Below, piece by piece: positions 6,511-15,184 of a stretch of 64,000 nt of DNA. Source of the DNA: Mesaphorura yosii (lineage: Eukaryota; Arthropoda; Collembola; Poduromorpha; Tullbergiidae); contig WIXG01000092.1 in the NCBI GenBank assembly GCA_009869945.1, positions 1-64,000 of the forward strand, in the 5' to 3' direction. A model generated the notes under the pieces. That model was given only the letters and a program-made list of their open reading frames with translations, was not told the origin of the DNA and did no database searches. Each line of letters opens with the position of its first letter. The stretch's first letter is position 1. The translations under genes were made by a program, and so were the position numbers.

Positions 6511-6676
6511 TTCGGACGGAGGATTTGGCCGAAACCCTTGGCAAAGTTGGTAGCTTCCTTTGAGTGCAAAGTGAATAGTCGCGTTCGACGATGTCGTCGA
6601 GTCCCGTCGTGGGCCACCCACGTGCTTCAAAATCCTCCGCTTGAGGCTCGTGGTCAGTTGGTTTTGTGGTGAAGAC
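6511..6676 (-). CDS. Host exon 3' part, cut by transposon
   Basis: Read on the minus strand, this stretch stays open from the transposon edge (VFTTKPTDHEPQ...) to a strong donor, GTAAGTTGG, just left of 6,511. With the transposon and one copy of its duplicated target removed, the frame runs without a stop into 14,028-~14,110 on the other side (…ELVAVAVTVFTTKP…), giving one exon-like frame of at least 85 codons. The peptide matches no family I know. If this is a real exon, the host gene is broken in this haplotype. The open frame and donor are seen; its coding status is inferred. Confidence 0.35.
6671..6676. repeat. Left target-site duplication GAAGAC
   Basis: Six bases directly outside the left inverted repeat. 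The identical GAAGAC lies directly outside the right inverted repeat at 14,022-14,027. A perfect match at both edges fixes the element's ends and suggests that the insertion is not old. Confidence 0.93.
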
Positions 6677-6961
6677 TATGAGGGGGTATCGAGGACAGTA
6701 TTCACAACATGTGTGCACCACCTCGCAATTCACGTACTTGAGCTGTATAACTGTTGCGTCACCTTCCAAACTATGATCTTGCATTACACAAATCATGATC
6801 TCGTATTGTACAACCCATGATCTTGCACAGCTAATGCAAGTACGTGCAAACTCAAACTTCTGCATTGCAAACACAGCACAGCATGCACAAACATGCAATC
6901 TTATGTACATTGTACATCAGCAGGAACCTGCTTTTATCACGAAGTTTATGCATAAAACGAG
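6677..6961 (+). repeat. Left terminal inverted repeat
   Basis: About 285 bp, matching the reverse complement of 13,737-14,021 at roughly 95% identity with a handful of substitutions. It contains three copies of ATGATCT starting at 6,773, 6,795 and 6,817, exactly 22 bp apart, then a series of short palindromes (GTACGTGC, GCATGC, TGTACATTGTACA-like). The iterated sites are good candidates for transposase binding. Confidence 0.93.
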
Positions 6962-7101
6962 AACTATCCCGCCAGAGCAAACAAAAGAATTCTGTGCGCA
7001 TAAACGATCTAAAAGCGTTTGCAGCTGTTAACTTGTTAATCTTCTAACGTCTAAATTGAAAGTGAACTTACCAAAAAGGTTTAATTTGGAGCAAAAAGAA
7101 A

Positions 7102-10100
7102 ATCGGATCCGATAGCATAGGGTCCCAACAGACATTGGGCAAAATGAGTGATAACCCCGAAGTACAAAGAGCACTGACAATGCTAACAGAGGCCACGTCA
7201 ATCATACGAAGGCAATCAGGTATGCCAAATAAACGATATATTGTGGTTAATCTCGTATCTTCAGCACATATTTCTAATGATAGGATCTGGATATGATTCG
7301 ACATCAGGCATGCCGAGAACTGCCCAAACTACACCAGACAGAGTAGCGGAGCTGAGGAATTTATTCCAGCCGTACAATATCACTGGACGGATCCGTCCTG
7401 GTACCTCTGCAGCAGTAAGGGGCCAGCAAAGACGGCAAAACCCACCTCGGCCATGGAGTAACAGAGTTTTCTGTCTGAACGATCCTCATACCACAATGAC
7501 GCCTACGATTCCAATAAAAATGCAACTGCAAAACATGGGCCTAGGACTCGAGATGGTGCAGCTTGGTAAGTAGTGCCGCCCACTTACTTGTTAATGGCCC
7601 ACAATTGATAGGGTAATTCGTTGCCTGCAGACATGAATAGTGGCGCGGATGTGTTGGAGTCCGCGATTAGGGCCACGTTTCCAAAGCTCGATGGGAAACC
7701 ATTTGAGCTCCTACGAGCATTAAGCGGTGGAGACAATAAGCCTCTCATTCGCGTCTCTGTGACCCACGAAATTCCACCCGTCGCCTACCTGACATCAATT
7801 ATTCGTCGTGGAACAATCTACGTTCGCCCTAAAGAACCTTTAATGATCTTAATGGTGAACTTGATTTTGAAACTTAATTGGGCTCAACTAATAAGTGCTT
7901 TTGATACAGAATGATCAATCTGATAATTTGGATGGTACGGCAGCTAACTCTGGATCCAGAGGACAGCAAACACAAGAACAGGAGGTGGGGATTGATATGG
8001 GGGGTTTTGATGCGGCAAGCTCTGAGTCCGTTGCTTTTGGAAATAATGCCTCTGAGCCAGTACCTGCAATTAATTCCAATATTGACCGTAATGAGCCCAT
8101 CCAGGGTACGTCTAGAGCTCTCTATGCGGAAATACAAATGGACGATCAAAATACAATTGGTAATACGATTGATTGGATTGTCCCCAAACAATTAGCTTCA
8201 TGCACTTTCAAGTATTTGATAACTATATTTTAATTAATATAGAGTTTGCCACCCTAGACGAATTTCGGGCTGGTAAAATTCGTGGGCACAGTGGTGCTCA
8301 AGTAATTCATGTGCGTCGAGAAGATTTCACGACAGAAGTGGTGGGCCAATATTTGAAAGGATCCATTAATCTTTACAAAGAACCGAATATTTTTTTCTCT
8401 GGAGAACCAGGTATTTCGTGGGCGTAATATGAGTCAGGACCCTCACATTAACTGCGTTACCTCTTTTAGGAAGGGATTTTGGTGCGCTGAGAAGAGAATA
8501 TTTCCATGAAGGAATTAATGCAATCACTAATGGCAAATATGATGGCAGATTTCCAATATTTGATGGTGAGATAGACCATAAGCTACCCTCAACTAATGCA
8601 GCACTCCTACGTGGTTCAATTTTTGAAGCAGTTGGGAAGTTCATGGTGCATTCAATCATTCATACTGGTAAGATACAGCTAAACAAATTAGTGAAGCCAC
8701 AGTTATACCAGTTTAATATGTAGGGATTGGCTGCATTGGATTAAGTGATGCAATGGTGGAGTACCTCACGTCGAACTCCGTTTCTACGAACACATCGTTC
8801 GCGATGAACCTAAACGACGTGACCCAACACGAGGTCCGTCAAGCACTTATGGCGGTCAGTCCCTTGTATCCAAAATCAGTCACACACACTAGCTGAATTC
8901 ATTTTCTAAATTAAACTGGATTAGATAAATAATTGGGAAGGACAAGCGCCGGATCCGGATGTTCTAAGAAACATTCAAGACGTGGCGTGGGATTCTGGGT
9001 ACGAAGTTGGCATTCTTTTCGAAAATCGGATCATGGCGGCTCAGCATATTCTATACCACCATGTAGTTGAAAAAAGAAGACCACAGCTGGACGCAATCAA
9101 AATTGCATTTCTGGAATCTGGCCTGACAAAATTTCTATCTGATAGGCCTTACCTAGTTTCCGGAGCATTTCCACAACACAAGGATTTGTTGATTCCAGCG
9201 AACTTGGTTTTCCAGAAGATTGAGTTTTTTGGCGAAGAAACTTCTAGGCATCTTTTGGAAACCCTTAAGAACTATATTTTGGAAATTACTCCAGGTATGG
9301 CCTAGAACTTGGCGATAGAAGTGATATACATTTTCCTAACTCCCCAGTGGTGAATATCATTAGACGGAGAAAGGTCCAAGCAAATTTTGATGGCATGGAC
9401 GGGCTGGCCCTTGCTGCCTGAAGGGTCACTCATTTTCAAGGTGGAGGACGATGTGGACTTTGTCGTGCATGCTTGCACCAATGAGATGATTGTTCCTTCC
9501 AGTTGGAAAGCAGATGACCTCCGGCACACCTTCAACATACTTTTTGATCATGGAGCCGCTGGTTTTGGAGTTGTATAATTTAGGGCAAATACTATACCTA
9601 AACTTGATCAAGTAAAGATTAAATAAATTTATTGCCGCAAATAAATTCAGTCATCACTCGTCCATTGCTTGATTGGCTTGTAATAAGCACTGCAGTGCTT
9701 GCTCGAATAGATCACACCCGAATAATTCTGACGGAGCTAATGGATCCGTTGTACTGAGTCGGCGAAGTTCTGCCGAGGTAAAGTCACCAATGTCTTGAAC
9801 TGTAGTTATGGAGTCCTGGTCGTCAAACATATTCAAATCTTCCAACTGATCACAAGTAAAGTGTAGGTCGGTGCCGTAAACCTGCAGTAGAATTTTGAAA
9901 AGCTAAATAGTTAATTGTTATTATTTTCAAATGGCAAATGAAATTTACCTGATCAATAGGCAGATCTGCTTCGGGTGGCGAAATGTGTAGCAGCATGAGT
10001 TGATTTGGCGTCTTGTTGCGTTCTGTTGATAATGGGTGGCAATTCCAGCCGTCCCGAAATTGGTCAAGATGTCGCTGAATTCTTGGAACGAATATCCATT

Positions 10101-10893
10101 GCAAAACCTTGATATGCTTCCACACATCCACATTTAATAGTTGAGTTTCTTCAAGTGTTTTAAAAACGTTGTAATAGAATGAAGTCAGTCGATGGAGGTC
10201 CCGCCAGAATCTTTCAATTCTGCATAAATTAAATAATAAGGGAGGTGGTTATTACAACTTGGATCCAAGTTTTCATACCGTTGGTTGTGCACTGATCTGC
10301 CACATATATGACTTGCGCGTCCCAGCCCTCTCGACTCCAACATAAACTTCGCGATCAGTACATTCTCCCTTCCTTTGTCAGACCTGGTCCTTTGAGGAAC
10401 CCCGTACATGGCGGCGCCTTGGAGAAAAGCAGACAGGCTTGACTCGGCTTTGTTATCGCATCCAATACGCAGATATGTGACGCATCTGCTCTTTCCATCA
10501 ATTCCGCCACGGATCACCAGCCCCCATCTTTAAACCCGGCAAAATTGTTAAAAAACAAAAGTTATATTAAAGTGCTTGCTTGCCTTATTAACTTCAGATT
10601 TCCATCAATGTGCCACATTTGATTACTGTAGTCAACATAGTATTCCCTTCTTACAATGGCATGGTTCATTTGTGTCCTTTGGTAAACTCCTTGCGGATCC
10701 GCGGTACGCATAACTTCCCTCACTCTCACCTCAGTGACCTTAACACCTCTGGACAACAAGAATCCCTTCATCCTTTTGTAACCTGTATTCGGGTGATTAA
10801 GGAGAATCTCCGTCACCAAATTTTTTAGGTTATAGTCATCTATTGTTGTGTAAGTTGATGACACCTGTGTAGATAAGAAAAGTTTGGATCCAA
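7102..10893. repeat. Set of seven GGATCC-centred palindromes
   Basis: GGATCC occurs nine times inside the element and seven copies sit in perfect longer palindromes: 7102-7113 (12 bp), 7385-7398 (14 bp, GGACGGATCCGTCC), 7948-7961 (14 bp, CTCTGGATCCAGAG), 8949-8958 (10 bp), 10256-10271 (16 bp, AACTTGGATCCAAGTT), 10693-10702 (10 bp) and 10884-10893 (10 bp). The two without arms are near 8,359 and 9,742. A one-mismatch relative, CTTGGATTCAAG, lies near 11,320. They fall in both exons and introns. Confidence 0.75.
7144..9578 (+). CDS. HECT-type E3 ubiquitin ligase of the transposon
   Basis: Nine exons: 7144-7219, 7284-7565, 7631-7854, 7910-8159, 8243-8410, 8470-8667, 8724-8854, 8925-9294, 9364-9578. 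They total 1,914 nt and encode 637 aa with no frame break. Residues 1-~280 are low complexity with no known domain. Residues ~285-637 form a HECT domain: an N-lobe start with VIHVRREDF and FFSGEPGRDFGALRREYF, and a C-lobe with TGWPLLPEGS, then HACTN holding the catalytic cysteine (C604), closing on the usual short aromatic tail GFGVV. HECT ligases take ubiquitin from E2 onto this Cys and pass it to substrates. The last exon must start at the acceptor TATCATTAG; the upstream CCCCAG would give a premature stop. It resembles the degenerate G2E3-type HECT proteins found beside integrases in other animals. Role in transposition is unknown. Confidence 0.85.
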
Positions 10894-11301
10894 GCTGTTT
10901 AACGTGTAATTAAGATATTGACTTGCCGACAGTCCAGCTTCTTCCAGTCGCCGAAATATGGTTTTCTTTGAAACGCTATACATTCCAGCTATTTGCGAAA
11001 CATTAAAGTTCATTGAAAGTAAATGCTCTAATGCGGCTGGGGGTAAATATATTTTAGGTTGTCCAGGCCTTCGTCCCTGATAATTTTCCGTCAGAGGCTC
11101 CAAAACATCAATTGATTGCAAGATGAGGTCATAGACACGAGCGAAAGTGGTGGCATCAGCCAAAGAATTTAACGCACTAATCAACGACTCCAGTTTTGTG
11201 ATAGCGTAGTCCACGGATTCTAAGCTTTCTGAAAGAAGGCTGATGCAGCCATTCAATTCGAGTAGACATATGGTTCGAAAGTCCTGATCGTCCATCGCCA
11301 T
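9654..11301 (-). CDS. DDE integrase/transposase, IS3-like
   Basis: Five exons in coding order: 11301-10927, 10864-10584, 10527-10279, 10219-9949, 9881-9654. They total 1,404 nt and encode 467 aa with no frame break. Order: helical N-terminus, helix-turn-helix at ~86-122 (VSQIAGMYSVSKKTIFRRLE), an HTH_21-like region at ~130-180 (HPNTGYKRMKGFLLSRGVKV), then an rve-type catalytic core with D212 (WHIDGN), D269 (RSDKGREN) and E304 (HNQRIERFW). The last two are 35 residues apart, the classic DDE spacing. The core tail has FRDGWNCHPLS and KTPNQLM, as in eukaryotic integrase-core proteins. It should cut and join the element's ends. Introns 1 and 2 use GC donors (GCAAGT and GCAAGC); using GT alternatives would break the conserved reading. 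All catalytic residues are present, so the enzyme may be active. Confidence 0.88.
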
Positions 11302-12415
11302 AATGTGGTAGCGTTCAACTTGGATTCAAGCTTCAGAGTGCTGTAACTACGCAGTAATAATGAACAACTTATTGCTTCTAACAAGTCCAACTATTCTGTT
11401 AAGTATTCTTGGTCGAAGCCGTGAAATAAACTTAACTCTTTAATAATACTTGTGATTATTTCTACTTCAGCGTTTAGCTATTAGTTTATAGGTCGTGGGA
11501 ATTGTTTCGTTTAGCGAATAATTCATGAAAGAATTTATGCCGCGCATTTGTGGACTGAGACAATGAGTAAAGGAACACATCCTGATCGAACTGTGGGAAC
11601 AGTTTAGCAATAAAGCTATTAGAGCGAGTTTAATAGTATCCCTTAGACTTTTGTAATGTTTATTATTTATATTTTTATTTATGTTTATTAGCACACCTTG
11701 AGATGGGCTACTGCAGTTGTGGATGGACGTCTGTCTGTACGAGTGATACCAGATTTTACGGTTGAAGGGAAACGGAGTTAGAGTTTGGTTTGGTTTGACA
11801 CCAAAGGTGCCTACAATGCTCTACCGATGTGGCGAAAAAACTAAACGAAAGCATGAAAACAGGGAAAACAAGGAGAAATGGCAGTATTTATAGTGAAACA
11901 GGGAAGCATGTACGCGTGTTCATGTATATCACAGACAATCGGGTCGTAAAGACAATTCGGTGATGACAAATACACATGCAGTGATGTCTAAGAAGTACGA
12001 GAACAGGGGAAAAAGGAATAATGATAGCATGTTACGCGGCACTGGTCGATAACCGCAAATGAACGTTGGATACCCGTTATCCAGAGAAATGCCACACAAC
12101 CGATGAGGTCAAAGCCTCCCAGCCAATTTTTTCATTGGAATGTAAACAATGGATGATGGTAAAGGCGTGATGAGAAAATGACCAGGATCGGTCACGCGGC
12201 ACTGCGAAAGAGTTGCGTGGTCAATCAGTAACCAAGCGCTATGAGAAGTAATTGAACAAAGACAGGAGTGAGACAGCAAGGAAGCGCGGAGCATTCGAAA
12301 CTAGCCATATGGGAAACCGTACAAAATTCACAATAAAGAATCTGTGTGCAAGAAATTGAGTTCTAACAGTTAGAAATCCAATTAATCAAACAGTTGTCAT
12401 TAGTGCAGTGGTACC
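11302..12415. promoter_or_regulatory. Divergent intergenic region inside the transposon
   Basis: About 1.1 kb separates the start codons of the integrase (minus) and the H3-tail gene (plus), so it should hold both promoters. No clear TATA box was identified. Imperfect inverted repeats are present, such as TGGATA/TATCCA arms around 12,066 and TGACC/GGTCA arms around 12,180. Short open frames on the minus strand here have no recognisable content. Confidence 0.4.
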
Positions 12416-13579
12416 ATGGCCAGAATGAAGAATGTTGGCGTACAACGTGGACAACTTTCCGGAAAACGTCGTGGAGTGACAGTTGCTCAGAGGAAGAGTG
12501 CACCAGCCACAGGTTCGGACCTTTGGTTTGGTTGTGAAGCGAGGTTTTGCATTCATTCATTTTTTCACTTATTCAGGAGGTGTTAAAAAGCCTCGCCGTT
12601 ATAAAGCTGGAACAGTCAGCTTGAGAAGAGTTGTTCGACCGACAACAGTGACCAAAAAAAGGAATTATGCCAAAAATCCACTACTGCCAGCCATTACAGC
12701 CGATGAACAACGCGAATTGGTCAAAGAGGTCAACTCCAAGTTTCCTGAGGCTGACAACAAACGACGATTCTTGAGTCAGATGGCAGCTAATCTACTGCAA
12801 GAATATCATCACTCGGCAACGGAGGACGTCACTATCTGGGCCCAATTTAAACATGGAATGGGGACAAAACTGCCTCGAAGCGAGTGCCAAACCTTTTACA
12901 TTAATGAAGCACCAGCCAACAAAATTACGTACGAGTGGTACAGCCGACTGATTGTCTTTAAGAGCGCAAAACATCGAGAGCAGGCTGTGAGGATCGGTAA
13001 GCAAAATATCAATAAAACAAAAGACACAAATAAAGTAACCACAAACCTAGTAAAATAAAAGCCCAACACTTAATTTTTACAGTGGATGGAAAACGGGAGT
13101 ACTTGTGGGCGGCTTGCAACGCCACGACGGAGAAGGAGGGCTTAAGGCAGGTGAAGGAGCGAGCGCGCAAGCATCCAGGGCGGTACATCTTGGCGGTTCT
13201 GGGTTCTGGTAGTGTGGTCCAGCAGAATGGTCACTGCGTCGTTCTTGTGATGACCTTCAATGAGGAAAGCACCAAGTTCGAGGGCTGGGTAAAGGATAGC
13301 CTCGCCACCGAAGCACCACCGAGATTAATCCGAGCTCAAACAATGGCCAGCGGCCTTGGCATGAAGACGATTAGAGTGTTTGGAGCGCGAGGGAGGGAGA
13401 TGAGTGCGAGCTGTGTCCTAGAGGCTCTACGATACGTAGCTGAAGTAATGGAAGCGGGACATAATTGGCGCATTATGATCGAAACCTGGAGCTTCTGGAT
13501 GATGAACGTGGGCAGTGGCCACCCTATCAAGTCAAAAACCGGCGATTTTTGGGTCAACCCACGGTTTGAAATGATTTAA
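12416..13579 (+). CDS. Histone H3-tail fusion protein of the transposon
   Basis: Three exons: 12416-12512, 12577-12996, 13083-13579. They total 1,014 nt and encode 337 aa in frame. Residues 2-5 are ARMK (H3: ARTK). Residues 26-49 contain RKSAPATGGVKKPRRYKAG then TVSLRR, nearly the H3 26-50 segment, at almost the same distance from the N-terminus as in H3. The K4, K27, K36 and K37 equivalents are kept and the K9 ARKS is lost. No histone fold follows. Residues ~60-337 form another domain containing NGHCVVLV (H223), WVKDSL (D244, 21 residues later) and SASCVLEALRYV (C283). That H/D/C order and the strand patterns resemble Ulp1/C48 cysteine proteases, but the usual Gln before Cys is not evident, so this is a hypothesis. 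The first intron (64 nt) falls inside the H3-like ATGG. A polyadenylation signal lies near 13,690. Likely nuclear; function unknown. Confidence 0.82.
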
Positions 13580-13736
13580 GCTCCTACCTACCTTACTTAC
13601 CTTTTGTTGATTGATACAATTTATTGAATTAACGTGACTGATTTTAACAACGGTATCAAATGTTTTCGTTTTCGTGGCCCTATAACATTAATAAAATCTA
13701 ATACTACGTCTTTATTAGCACATCTTCTAGATGGTC

Positions 13737-14021
13737 CTCGTTTTATGCATAAACTTCGTGACAAAAGCAGGTTCCTGCTGATGTACAATGTACATAAGAT
13801 TGCATGTTTGTGCATGCTGTGCTGCGTTTGCAATGCAGAAGTTTGAGTTTGCACGTACTTGCATTAGCTGTGCAAGATCAAGGGGTGTACAATACGAGAT
13901 CATGATTTGTGTAATGCAAGATCATGGTTTGGAAAGTGACGCAACAGTTAAACAGCTCAAGTACGTGAGTTGCGAGGTGGTGCGCACATGTTGTGAATAC
14001 TGTCCTCGATACCCCCTCATA
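13737..14021 (-). repeat. Right terminal inverted repeat
   Basis: Reverse-complement partner of 6,677-6,961. The three 22-bp-spaced motifs recur here as AGATCA at 13,875, 13,897 and 13,919; the innermost has one substitution relative to the left side. The repeat ends in CGATACCCCCTCATA. Confidence 0.93.
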
Positions 14022-14110
14022 GAAGACCGTTACAGCTACTGCTACAAGCTCGAGCTCGCTTTGGTGGAGGGGAGGTTGAGTCGCTGATGGAAGGTACGAT
14101 GGAGTGAGAA
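14022..14110 (-). CDS. Host exon 5' part, cut by transposon
   Basis: Directly right of the element, the minus strand carries the upstream half of the open frame seen at 6,511-6,676 (peptide LHQSELELVAVAVT then V-F). Positions 14,022-14,027 are the duplicated GAAGAC. No clear acceptor was found upstream, so the exon's true start is uncertain. Confidence 0.3.
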
Positions 14111-14334
14111 ATCGTATGTCACAGAGGTTGCATTTTGCATTGCATTAGCATTACCAGCAGGTAGGAAAAAAATTAGTGGAAGTTTTGTGGAGGACAATGC
14201 GACGATGGGCAACAGAAGGCCATCAGACTGAATGTATCAGACTATGTCTGAATTTTCGGAGACCTTGTCTGTAAGATTAATTAAGAGACGACCACGAATG
14301 TATGGACAGTGGTAAAGTTATCGGACTCAAATGT

Positions 14335-14715
14335 CTATCTTTTCAACTGGCAAATCGTTTGAAGAACCACAAATACTCTGATTCCAGCAGCAACTATTCC
14401 AAGGACTTGAATTTGTTCAATGACAATCGGTTCGGTGATTAGTTCGGGAAGAACCACAATCAAATGTTGATTGAACATGTGCATCGGACACTTGCCTCCG
14501 CTGTGTGCCCCCCCAAATGCAAGTGGTCCCAGATGAGTGGCCTCCATTGCTGGGCTACAGTTTCTAGTTTCATGGCCCACATCAGCACTTTCCCAAACCG
14601 GCCGGTTTTTCTTACACCATCGTCTAATAGACAATTCTAACATCCTGACCATTGTTGGACTTGAAAAGCCAGGGAACTTTTTATCTGACGTGGTTCTCTG
14701 CCTGAATTTTGGCAT
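14335..14715 (-). pseudogene. Tetraspanin-like fragment
   Basis: A 126-codon intronless frame starting at ATG 14,713-14,715. It has a Trp/Cys motif (RRWCKKNRPVWES), then RNCSP and GGKC, followed by a hydrophobic segment reading IEQIQVLGIVAAGIRVFVVL. That order resembles the large extracellular loop and fourth membrane helix of a tetraspanin, but the diagnostic CCG is missing and helices 1-3 are absent. It could be the last exon of a diverged tetraspanin or a decayed copy. No polyadenylation signal was noted. Confidence 0.33.
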
Positions 14716-14818
14716 CCAATCTCGAGATTCTCGTATTTTGGCAATCTCGAGTCAATCTCGATCTCGAGATTCTGACTTTGGTGATCTCGAAAAATCTCGA
14801 AGTCAGAAACCTCGAGGT
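14713..14818. repeat. TCTCGAGA-rich low-complexity patch
   Basis: About 100 bp with repeated ATCTCGAGAT-like words, many self-complementary. It is irregular in spacing rather than a clean tandem array. No function is suggested by the sequence alone. Confidence 0.6.
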
Positions 14819-15184
14819 GAGAAGCAGCGATAACTCATTAAGTTCTGCCTAGCGACACTGGTTCGCACAACTTCCGATGCGGTGGGGTACAAAGTATAAT
14901 AGTAAATCTTAATTCATAAAGAGACAGAAATTATCTTGTTCTCAAATTATCGCAGAGGCCTTGCCTGTAAAACCAACCAATTTTTGGTTATCGCAGCTAG
15001 AATGTGAAAAGATTGTTTAAAGTAAGTATAGTCATTTCTATTCGTAATCAAATGCAATAAATATGTGAGTGCGCATATGTTGATCCTGACCACATTCTTC
15101 CTGCGGCCTGCCCATCAGACAGAGTTTGAAAACTTACACCAGAAACAGAAAAAGAACCAGACAGACACAGCAAAGAAACTAAAG

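Follow-up and report, generated by a model that had tools for sequence, protein, structure and literature searches.

Organization of the element

The window, that is, the whole 64,000-nucleotide stretch of Mesaphorura yosii DNA analyzed here, contains two 292-bp terminal inverted repeats (TIRs) that enclose three genes: a HECT-like gene on the forward strand, a transposase gene in the middle on the reverse strand and, again on the forward strand, a gene whose product begins with sequence resembling the tail of histone H3, hereafter the H3-tail gene (Table 1). Because the 292-bp repeats have GAAGAC on both sides, the element can be delimited as 7,345 bp, from 6677 to 14021, with a perfect 6-bp target-site duplication (TSD). 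The two arms align with 11 mismatches in 292 positions and zero gaps, and the termini read TATGAGG..CCTCATA, i.e., TA..TA ends; the left arm came out of repeat finding as 293 nt, one base being a chance match outside the repeat. As a guess, the 22-bp repeat within the left arm is a candidate transposase-binding site.

Table 1. Coordinates of the features in the window and of two related sites elsewhere in the genome.
Feature	Position	Strand	Remarks
P-type cation ATPase frame, 954 aa	773-3637	-	without introns; Pfam E1-E2_ATPase, E 5.7e-34
TSD, left copy GAAGAC	6671-6676		read as GAAGAC followed by TATGAGG; identical to right copy
Left TIR, 292 bp	6677-6968	+	begins TATGAGGGGG; repeat finding and alignment
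22-bp unit, 2.8 tandem repeats	6767-6827		within left TIR; tandem repeat search
Gene 1, HECT-like protein, 637 aa	7144-9578	+	9 predicted exons
Gene 1, exons 1-5	7144-7219, 7284-7565, 7631-7854, 7910-8159, 8243-8410	+	predicted splice sites
Gene 1, exons 6-9	8470-8667, 8724-8854, 8925-9294, 9364-9578	+	predicted splice sites
Gene 2, DDE transposase, 467 aa	9654-11301	-	5 predicted exons; PF24764
Gene 2, exons	11301-10927, 10864-10584, 10527-10279, 10219-9949, 9881-9654	-	predicted splice sites
H3-tail gene, 337 aa	12416-13579	+	three exons, no internal stop
H3-tail exon 1	12416-12512	+	aa 1-32 and first base of codon 33; ATG in ACCATGG; ARxK N-terminus
Kept H3-like segment, exon 1 part	12488-12512	+	QRKSAPAT-; K27 equivalent at 12494-12496
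H3-tail intron 1, 64 bp	12513-12576	+	phase 1, within codon equivalent to H3 G33
H3-tail exon 2	12577-12996	+	through 12632 encodes (G)GVKKPRRYKAGTVSLRRV
H3-tail exon 3	13083-13579	+	orphan C-terminal region, aa 173-337; stop 13577-13579
AATAAA	13690-13695		between H3-tail gene and right TIR
Right TIR, 292 bp	13730-14021	-	terminates in CCCCCTCATA
TSD, right copy GAAGAC	14022-14027		read as CCCCCTCATA followed by GAAGAC
Transposase relic, 81 bp	L038:1831-1911 (contig C1077)		80% identical to transposase gene; stops within the stretch
Second H3-tail fusion, MSEDRIKQTARKSTGGMAPRMQLAVKHP..	L031:4446-5000 (host contig C111:171748-172287)	-	H3 1-45 match, E 1.9e-5

The middle gene encodes an IS3/IS481-like transposase that matches PF24764 with an E-value of 2.5e-69, together with an HTH_21 match (E 2.2e-4) that lies under Pfam's own cut-off, and it lacks an HHCC domain, as read from the sequence and unscored. 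Its frame is open, and residues D212, D269 and E304, invariant across 16 aligned sequences (the query plus 15 of the 120 hits listed), are read as the catalytic triad. Introns 1 and 2 are best read as GC-AG, which may be a mere rarity or may reflect early splice-site decay. Among 7988 candidates scored, 1262 relatives were found at E <= 1e-5; the 120 of them listed share 35-48% identity with the transposase, the best of these being from a springtail (40%), and the matches listed also come from fishes, cnidarians and molluscs, while 38 pattern matches in viral contigs yielded 0 confirmed relatives.

In the part of the published description drawn on here, complete IS3EU families have TA..TA termini and TSDs that are mostly 6 bp long (PMC10045372). 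By its termini, TSD and transposase type, the sequence fits a single, intact-looking DNA transposon of the IS3EU type, a match made to the published description, since the relatives listed carry no superfamily name. Searches by protein, by DNA (two query pieces spanning 6600-14900) and by Pfam family gave an element count of one in the 93-Mb genome, which contains besides this copy the 81-bp transposase relic of Table 1, on a contig of which 6000 of 11051 bases were inspected. The relic is a trace of an older related element formerly present in the genome. Repeated copies are usual for a transposon family but are no requirement for an element.

The 637-aa product of gene 1 has zero Pfam matches at E <= 1. 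Four weak matches were obtained in the PDB: a mitoribosomal protein, which scored best (E 0.26), and three HECT ligases (E 0.69-0.84). When the protein was compared with 49 frames from 22 of the genome's HECT loci, the best four matches (E 0.003, 0.007, 0.034 and 0.14) were N-lobe and C-lobe pieces in the correct order, a fifth (E 0.3) being out of order; a Cys also lies close to the C-terminus, at a position judged by eye. On this weak evidence we term the protein, which is outside Pfam's reach, HECT-like, not HECT. Outside the element, the window also carries the P-type ATPase frame; as an intronless gene in an intron-bearing genome, it is a possible case of horizontal transfer.

Structure and coding potential of the H3-tail gene

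The gene ends 150 bp from the right repeat. The donor of its first intron, GTTCGG, is weak; the junction of exons 1 and 2 is supported by homology, because splicing there restores H3 exactly (..APAT-G/G-VKKP..). Exons 2 and 3 are open, and among 5000 mononucleotide shuffles of each exon not one was. In coding-bias scores, the true frame of exon 2 came out best of six, at -0.035 bits/codon (about zero), and that of exon 3 second of six, at 0.090 versus 0.163 on the other strand; codon bias thus gives exon 3 no clear support. AF2 models of exons 2 and 3, each built alone and without an alignment, reached pLDDT values of 42.5 and 38.9, respectively, too low to support a search by fold, the former with low-confidence helices at about aa 74-87 and 91-112.

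Two statements of an earlier, sequence-only reading of this DNA are borne out here. It had described a gene for a 337-aa protein at 12416-13579, and had placed that gene in a transposon, a setting now documented by the 292-bp TIRs, the 6-bp TSD and a transposase frame that is open and retains its catalytic residues. A comparison that it had suggested, between the first intron and that of host H3.3 genes, showed different positions: in the host H3.3-like gene on contig C283 the first intron falls within the codon for R42 (read from the sequence), versus the G33 codon in the H3-tail gene, and inheritance of intron 1 from that host gene was therefore rejected.

Resemblance to histone H3 and the orphan C-terminal region

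A phmmer search of the PDB with the H3-tail protein returned 118 distinct sequences at E <= 1, with a best E-value of 1.4e-8 over aa 11-56, and every one of the 60 listed is H3 itself, an H3 variant or an H3 chimaera. In a search of 5.8 billion proteins that scored 2495 candidates, 8 matched at E <= 0.01; the Pfam histone domain is present in all eight, and the best of them (E 8.3e-12) is a protein bearing two H3 copies. Segment aa 1-57 aligned to H3 better than any of 2000 shuffles did. A reverse search of the genome with the H3-tail protein reached E 5.3e-6 and 0.009 for two H3 variants of the host. The H3-tail gene was absent from the genome matches to whole H3 (16) and to H3 1-45 (5), in searches that scored only the candidates of a loose first look and with the gene's tail split by an intron. 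As judged from these similarities, the N-terminus of the protein is derived from H3.

The preserved parts of H3 are the ARxK at the N-terminus and residues 26-49 only, which include K27, K36, K37 and the start of alpha-N. Within H3 positions 25-51, the protein shares 19 of 27 residues with the host H3.3-like gene, with identities spanning R26 to R49, versus 7 of 25 for Met plus H3 1-24 (Fisher p 0.005). The ARxK at positions 2-5, a motif chosen after the fact, was reproduced in 27 of 20000 shuffles. For residues 6-24, shuffles were equal or better against H3 in 8891 of 20000 cases; with aa 1-25 alone, 826 of 2000 shuffles did as well in local alignment, and the 7 identities observed in register were reached in 1120 of 20000. 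Equivalents of K4, K27, K36 and K37 are present, and the alignment used shows no counterpart of K9, K14, K18 or K23, with a Lys adjoining the place of K18. Ala occupies site 31, as in canonical H3; the host H3.3-like gene has Ser there. In exon 2, (G)GVKKPRRYKAGTVSLRRV holds the K36 and K37 equivalents and the start of alpha-N, and the remainder of the exon is without detectable relatives.

Beyond the tail, the search for a histone fold was negative: 933 of 2000 shuffles aligned with the H3 core as well as aa 58-130 did, zero Pfam histone matches were obtained at E <= 1, and when three sequences were searched with a profile built from nine H3 sequences, the E-value was 0.053. QRxLVxE- and RFxS..LQE-like runs, noticed by eye as a possible remnant of the fold, were dropped as not significant against shuffles. 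Residues 60-337 matched 0 of 444 candidates at E <= 10 among the 5.8 billion proteins, and a genome search with residues 54-337 returned nothing beyond their own locus. The whole protein gave 6 pattern matches but 0 relatives in viral contigs, and no relatives were confirmed for it in phage records or for the C-terminal region in NCBIfam; PHROGs returned weak hits of unknown function for that region (best E 0.041). On these searches, the C-terminal part of the protein is an orphan region.

These results lend partial support to the interpretation offered by the sequence-only reading, which had seen in this gene a mimic of the H3 tail. The resemblance stands for the ARxK and for H3 26-49, and it falls for residues 6-24, which fare no better than shuffled sequence, so that the tail is less complete than that reading had implied; the loss of K9 beside the retention of K4, K27, K36 and K37, the absence of a detectable histone fold and the presence of sequence without detected relatives after the tail fit what it had described.

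The genome also holds several divergent H3 variants (L011, L012, L013, L014, L016, L017, L020 and L022), some of them with tails that are rewritten or lengthened; L016 may be, as a guess, a centromeric H3. The second H3-tail fusion, on contig C111, continues after its tail into a region without a Pfam histone match, has, as judged by eye, an acidic stretch encoded further on in a later exon, and retains part of the H3 1-24 stretch lost from the element's H3-tail gene. No inverted repeat of at least 25 bp was found in the 9.9 kb surrounding it.

Possible roles of the H3-tail protein

We give only slightly less than even credence to the view that the H3-tail protein is a chromatin-facing adaptor within an IS3EU-type element, with its N-terminus taken from H3 and an orphan C-terminus. 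The element would be served by the C-terminal part, through binding to the element's own DNA, to the transposase or to the HECT-like protein, and the kept stretch from K27 to alpha-N would engage host writers or readers of K27 and K36, or nucleosomal DNA; as an outcome, the element might blunt silencing or set its integration complex on chromatin. It is likewise a tentative proposal, and one that we would rather raise than assert, that the transposon captured and long maintained an H3 tail segment, comprising ARxK and the stretch from K27-K36 to alpha-N, fused to an element-specific domain, and that host chromatin enzymes or readers would treat the resulting protein as H3.

Among the conceivable roles, anti-silencing is our first choice because the known fungal IS3EU passengers act on epigenetic marks. 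Methyltransferases of K36 require the small G33-G34 and the K-K-P context, and the G33-G34-V-K36-K37-P context is kept in the H3-tail protein; this kept K36 context, together with the lost K9 silencing site, would fit an escape from silencing or an interference with it. Since K9, K14, K18 and K23 are lost, the protein is no general mimic of the tail.

The same stretch of H3 might have been kept for binding DNA or nucleosomes, the protein being a basic accessory factor of transposition for which lysine marks are irrelevant. Alpha-N residues contact DNA in nucleosomes, where the H3 segment around 38-49 runs between the DNA gyres, and for this reason the conservation of alpha-N need not concern modification; the alpha-N part is accounted for equally well by DNA binding alone. 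The identity with H3 does extend beyond K37 through RRYKAGTVSLR, the segment is strongly basic, and the gene shares one element with a transposase. However, RKSAPATGGVKKP, which lies upstream of the DNA-contact part, is equally well kept, and the N-terminal ARxK is above chance (27/20000), features that leave DNA binding as the sole function unlikely, though still to be taken seriously.

Constraint, age and origin of the H3 segment

Codons of the H3 segment are identical to those of the host H3.3-like gene at 7 of the 19 identical residues, where 5.4 would be expected by chance, a level computed from the codon usage of one host gene and for this comparison only; against two other host H3 genes the figures are 5 of 17 and 2 of 15. 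With such codon agreement, a recent capture from a host H3 gene is not favored. As the residues were kept while codon identity is near chance, the segment would have been under long constraint, i.e., purifying selection, provided that it came from an H3 gene of this lineage, and this is what the comparison suggests. Were the donor a distant species, the codons would be less telling and a similar picture at synonymous sites would be expected; even then, either time or a chimaeric origin is required to account for the loss of residues 6-24. That all three frames are open despite 11 of 292 differences between the TIRs is a weak hint of constraint and not significant (0.062): 62 of 1000 simulations left the frames without a stop, on a neutral clock of half the TIR divergence that presumes arms identical at insertion, although the arms may have differed earlier.

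The same data bear on the idea that the H3-derived N-terminus is a passive captured relic, with the C-terminal region alone of importance or the whole gene functionless. Such a relic would be in keeping with the lack of relatives that could reveal conservation, with residues 6-24 and everything past about 57 being beyond recognition, with the weak donor of exon 1 and with a codon bias that is not telling. But a relic old enough for codon identity to have fallen to chance ought not to retain 19 of 27 residues, nor would it be expected to show the uneven conservation along the tail (Fisher p 0.005), unless a short fragment captured from a distant species explains both, and we regard the idea as rather improbable. 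It is very improbable that the gene is a domesticated locus, or a host H3 variant that inverted repeats happen to enclose, instead of cargo of the element: its single copy, the many divergent H3 variants in the genome and the presence of another H3-tail fusion where no inverted repeats were detected would suit such an origin, but the gene lies within sharp TIRs and a TSD, with an IS3EU-like transposase and 150 bp from the right TIR, and its orphan part has no other match in the genome.

Comparison with known systems

With histone H3 and its variants the H3-tail protein has in common the N-terminal ARxK and residues 26-49, and it differs from them in having no detectable histone fold, in the rewriting of residues 6-24 and in its length of 337 aa. 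In histone mimics, influenza NS1 and the G9a substrate ATF7IP among them, the imitation covers a few residues around K4 or K9. Like them, the present protein carries an H3-like motif outside a histone that could recruit writers and readers of H3; unlike them, it does so with a longer stretch, around K27-K36, and in a protein of a transposon.

Transposons carry enzymes that alter DNA or histone marks. If the proposal of a captured H3 tail that host factors treat as H3 is true, this would be a first histone-mimic gene in a DNA transposon, directed against silencing or serving targeting, and carrying a histone tail, as a copied substrate, in place of an enzyme would represent a different strategy in the conflict between transposons and silencing. 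It would also mean that selection can preserve a segment of the H3 tail apart from the histone fold. The literature searched, which was covered in part, through titles and the beginnings of abstracts, yielded no description of a transposon with an H3 tail.

As far as the portion of PMC10045372 considered here describes them, IS3EU and GingerRoot elements share with the present element the TA..TA termini, the 6-bp TSD and an integrase-like DDE transposase, and the H3-tail gene sets the present element apart from them, in a comparison made with the published description. SET methyltransferases and anti-silencing proteins occur in other transposons, according to the relevant passages of PMC12730594. 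The same passages describe fungal TET/JBP IS3EU elements in which a dioxygenase gene lies between a transposase and an alpha-kinase, the latter two oppositely oriented, and which in rust fungi have TAYGG..CCRTA ends and 6-bp TSDs (PMC12730594). In the features covered there, both systems have such borders, an extra gene with a connection to epigenetic marks and another gene opposite to the transposase (PMC12730594). The order of genes differs, with the transposase central here and the HECT-like and H3-tail genes flanking it, and so does the passenger, which in the fungal elements, as described in those passages, is an enzyme acting on 5mC and in the present element an H3-derived segment joined to an orphan region (PMC12730594).
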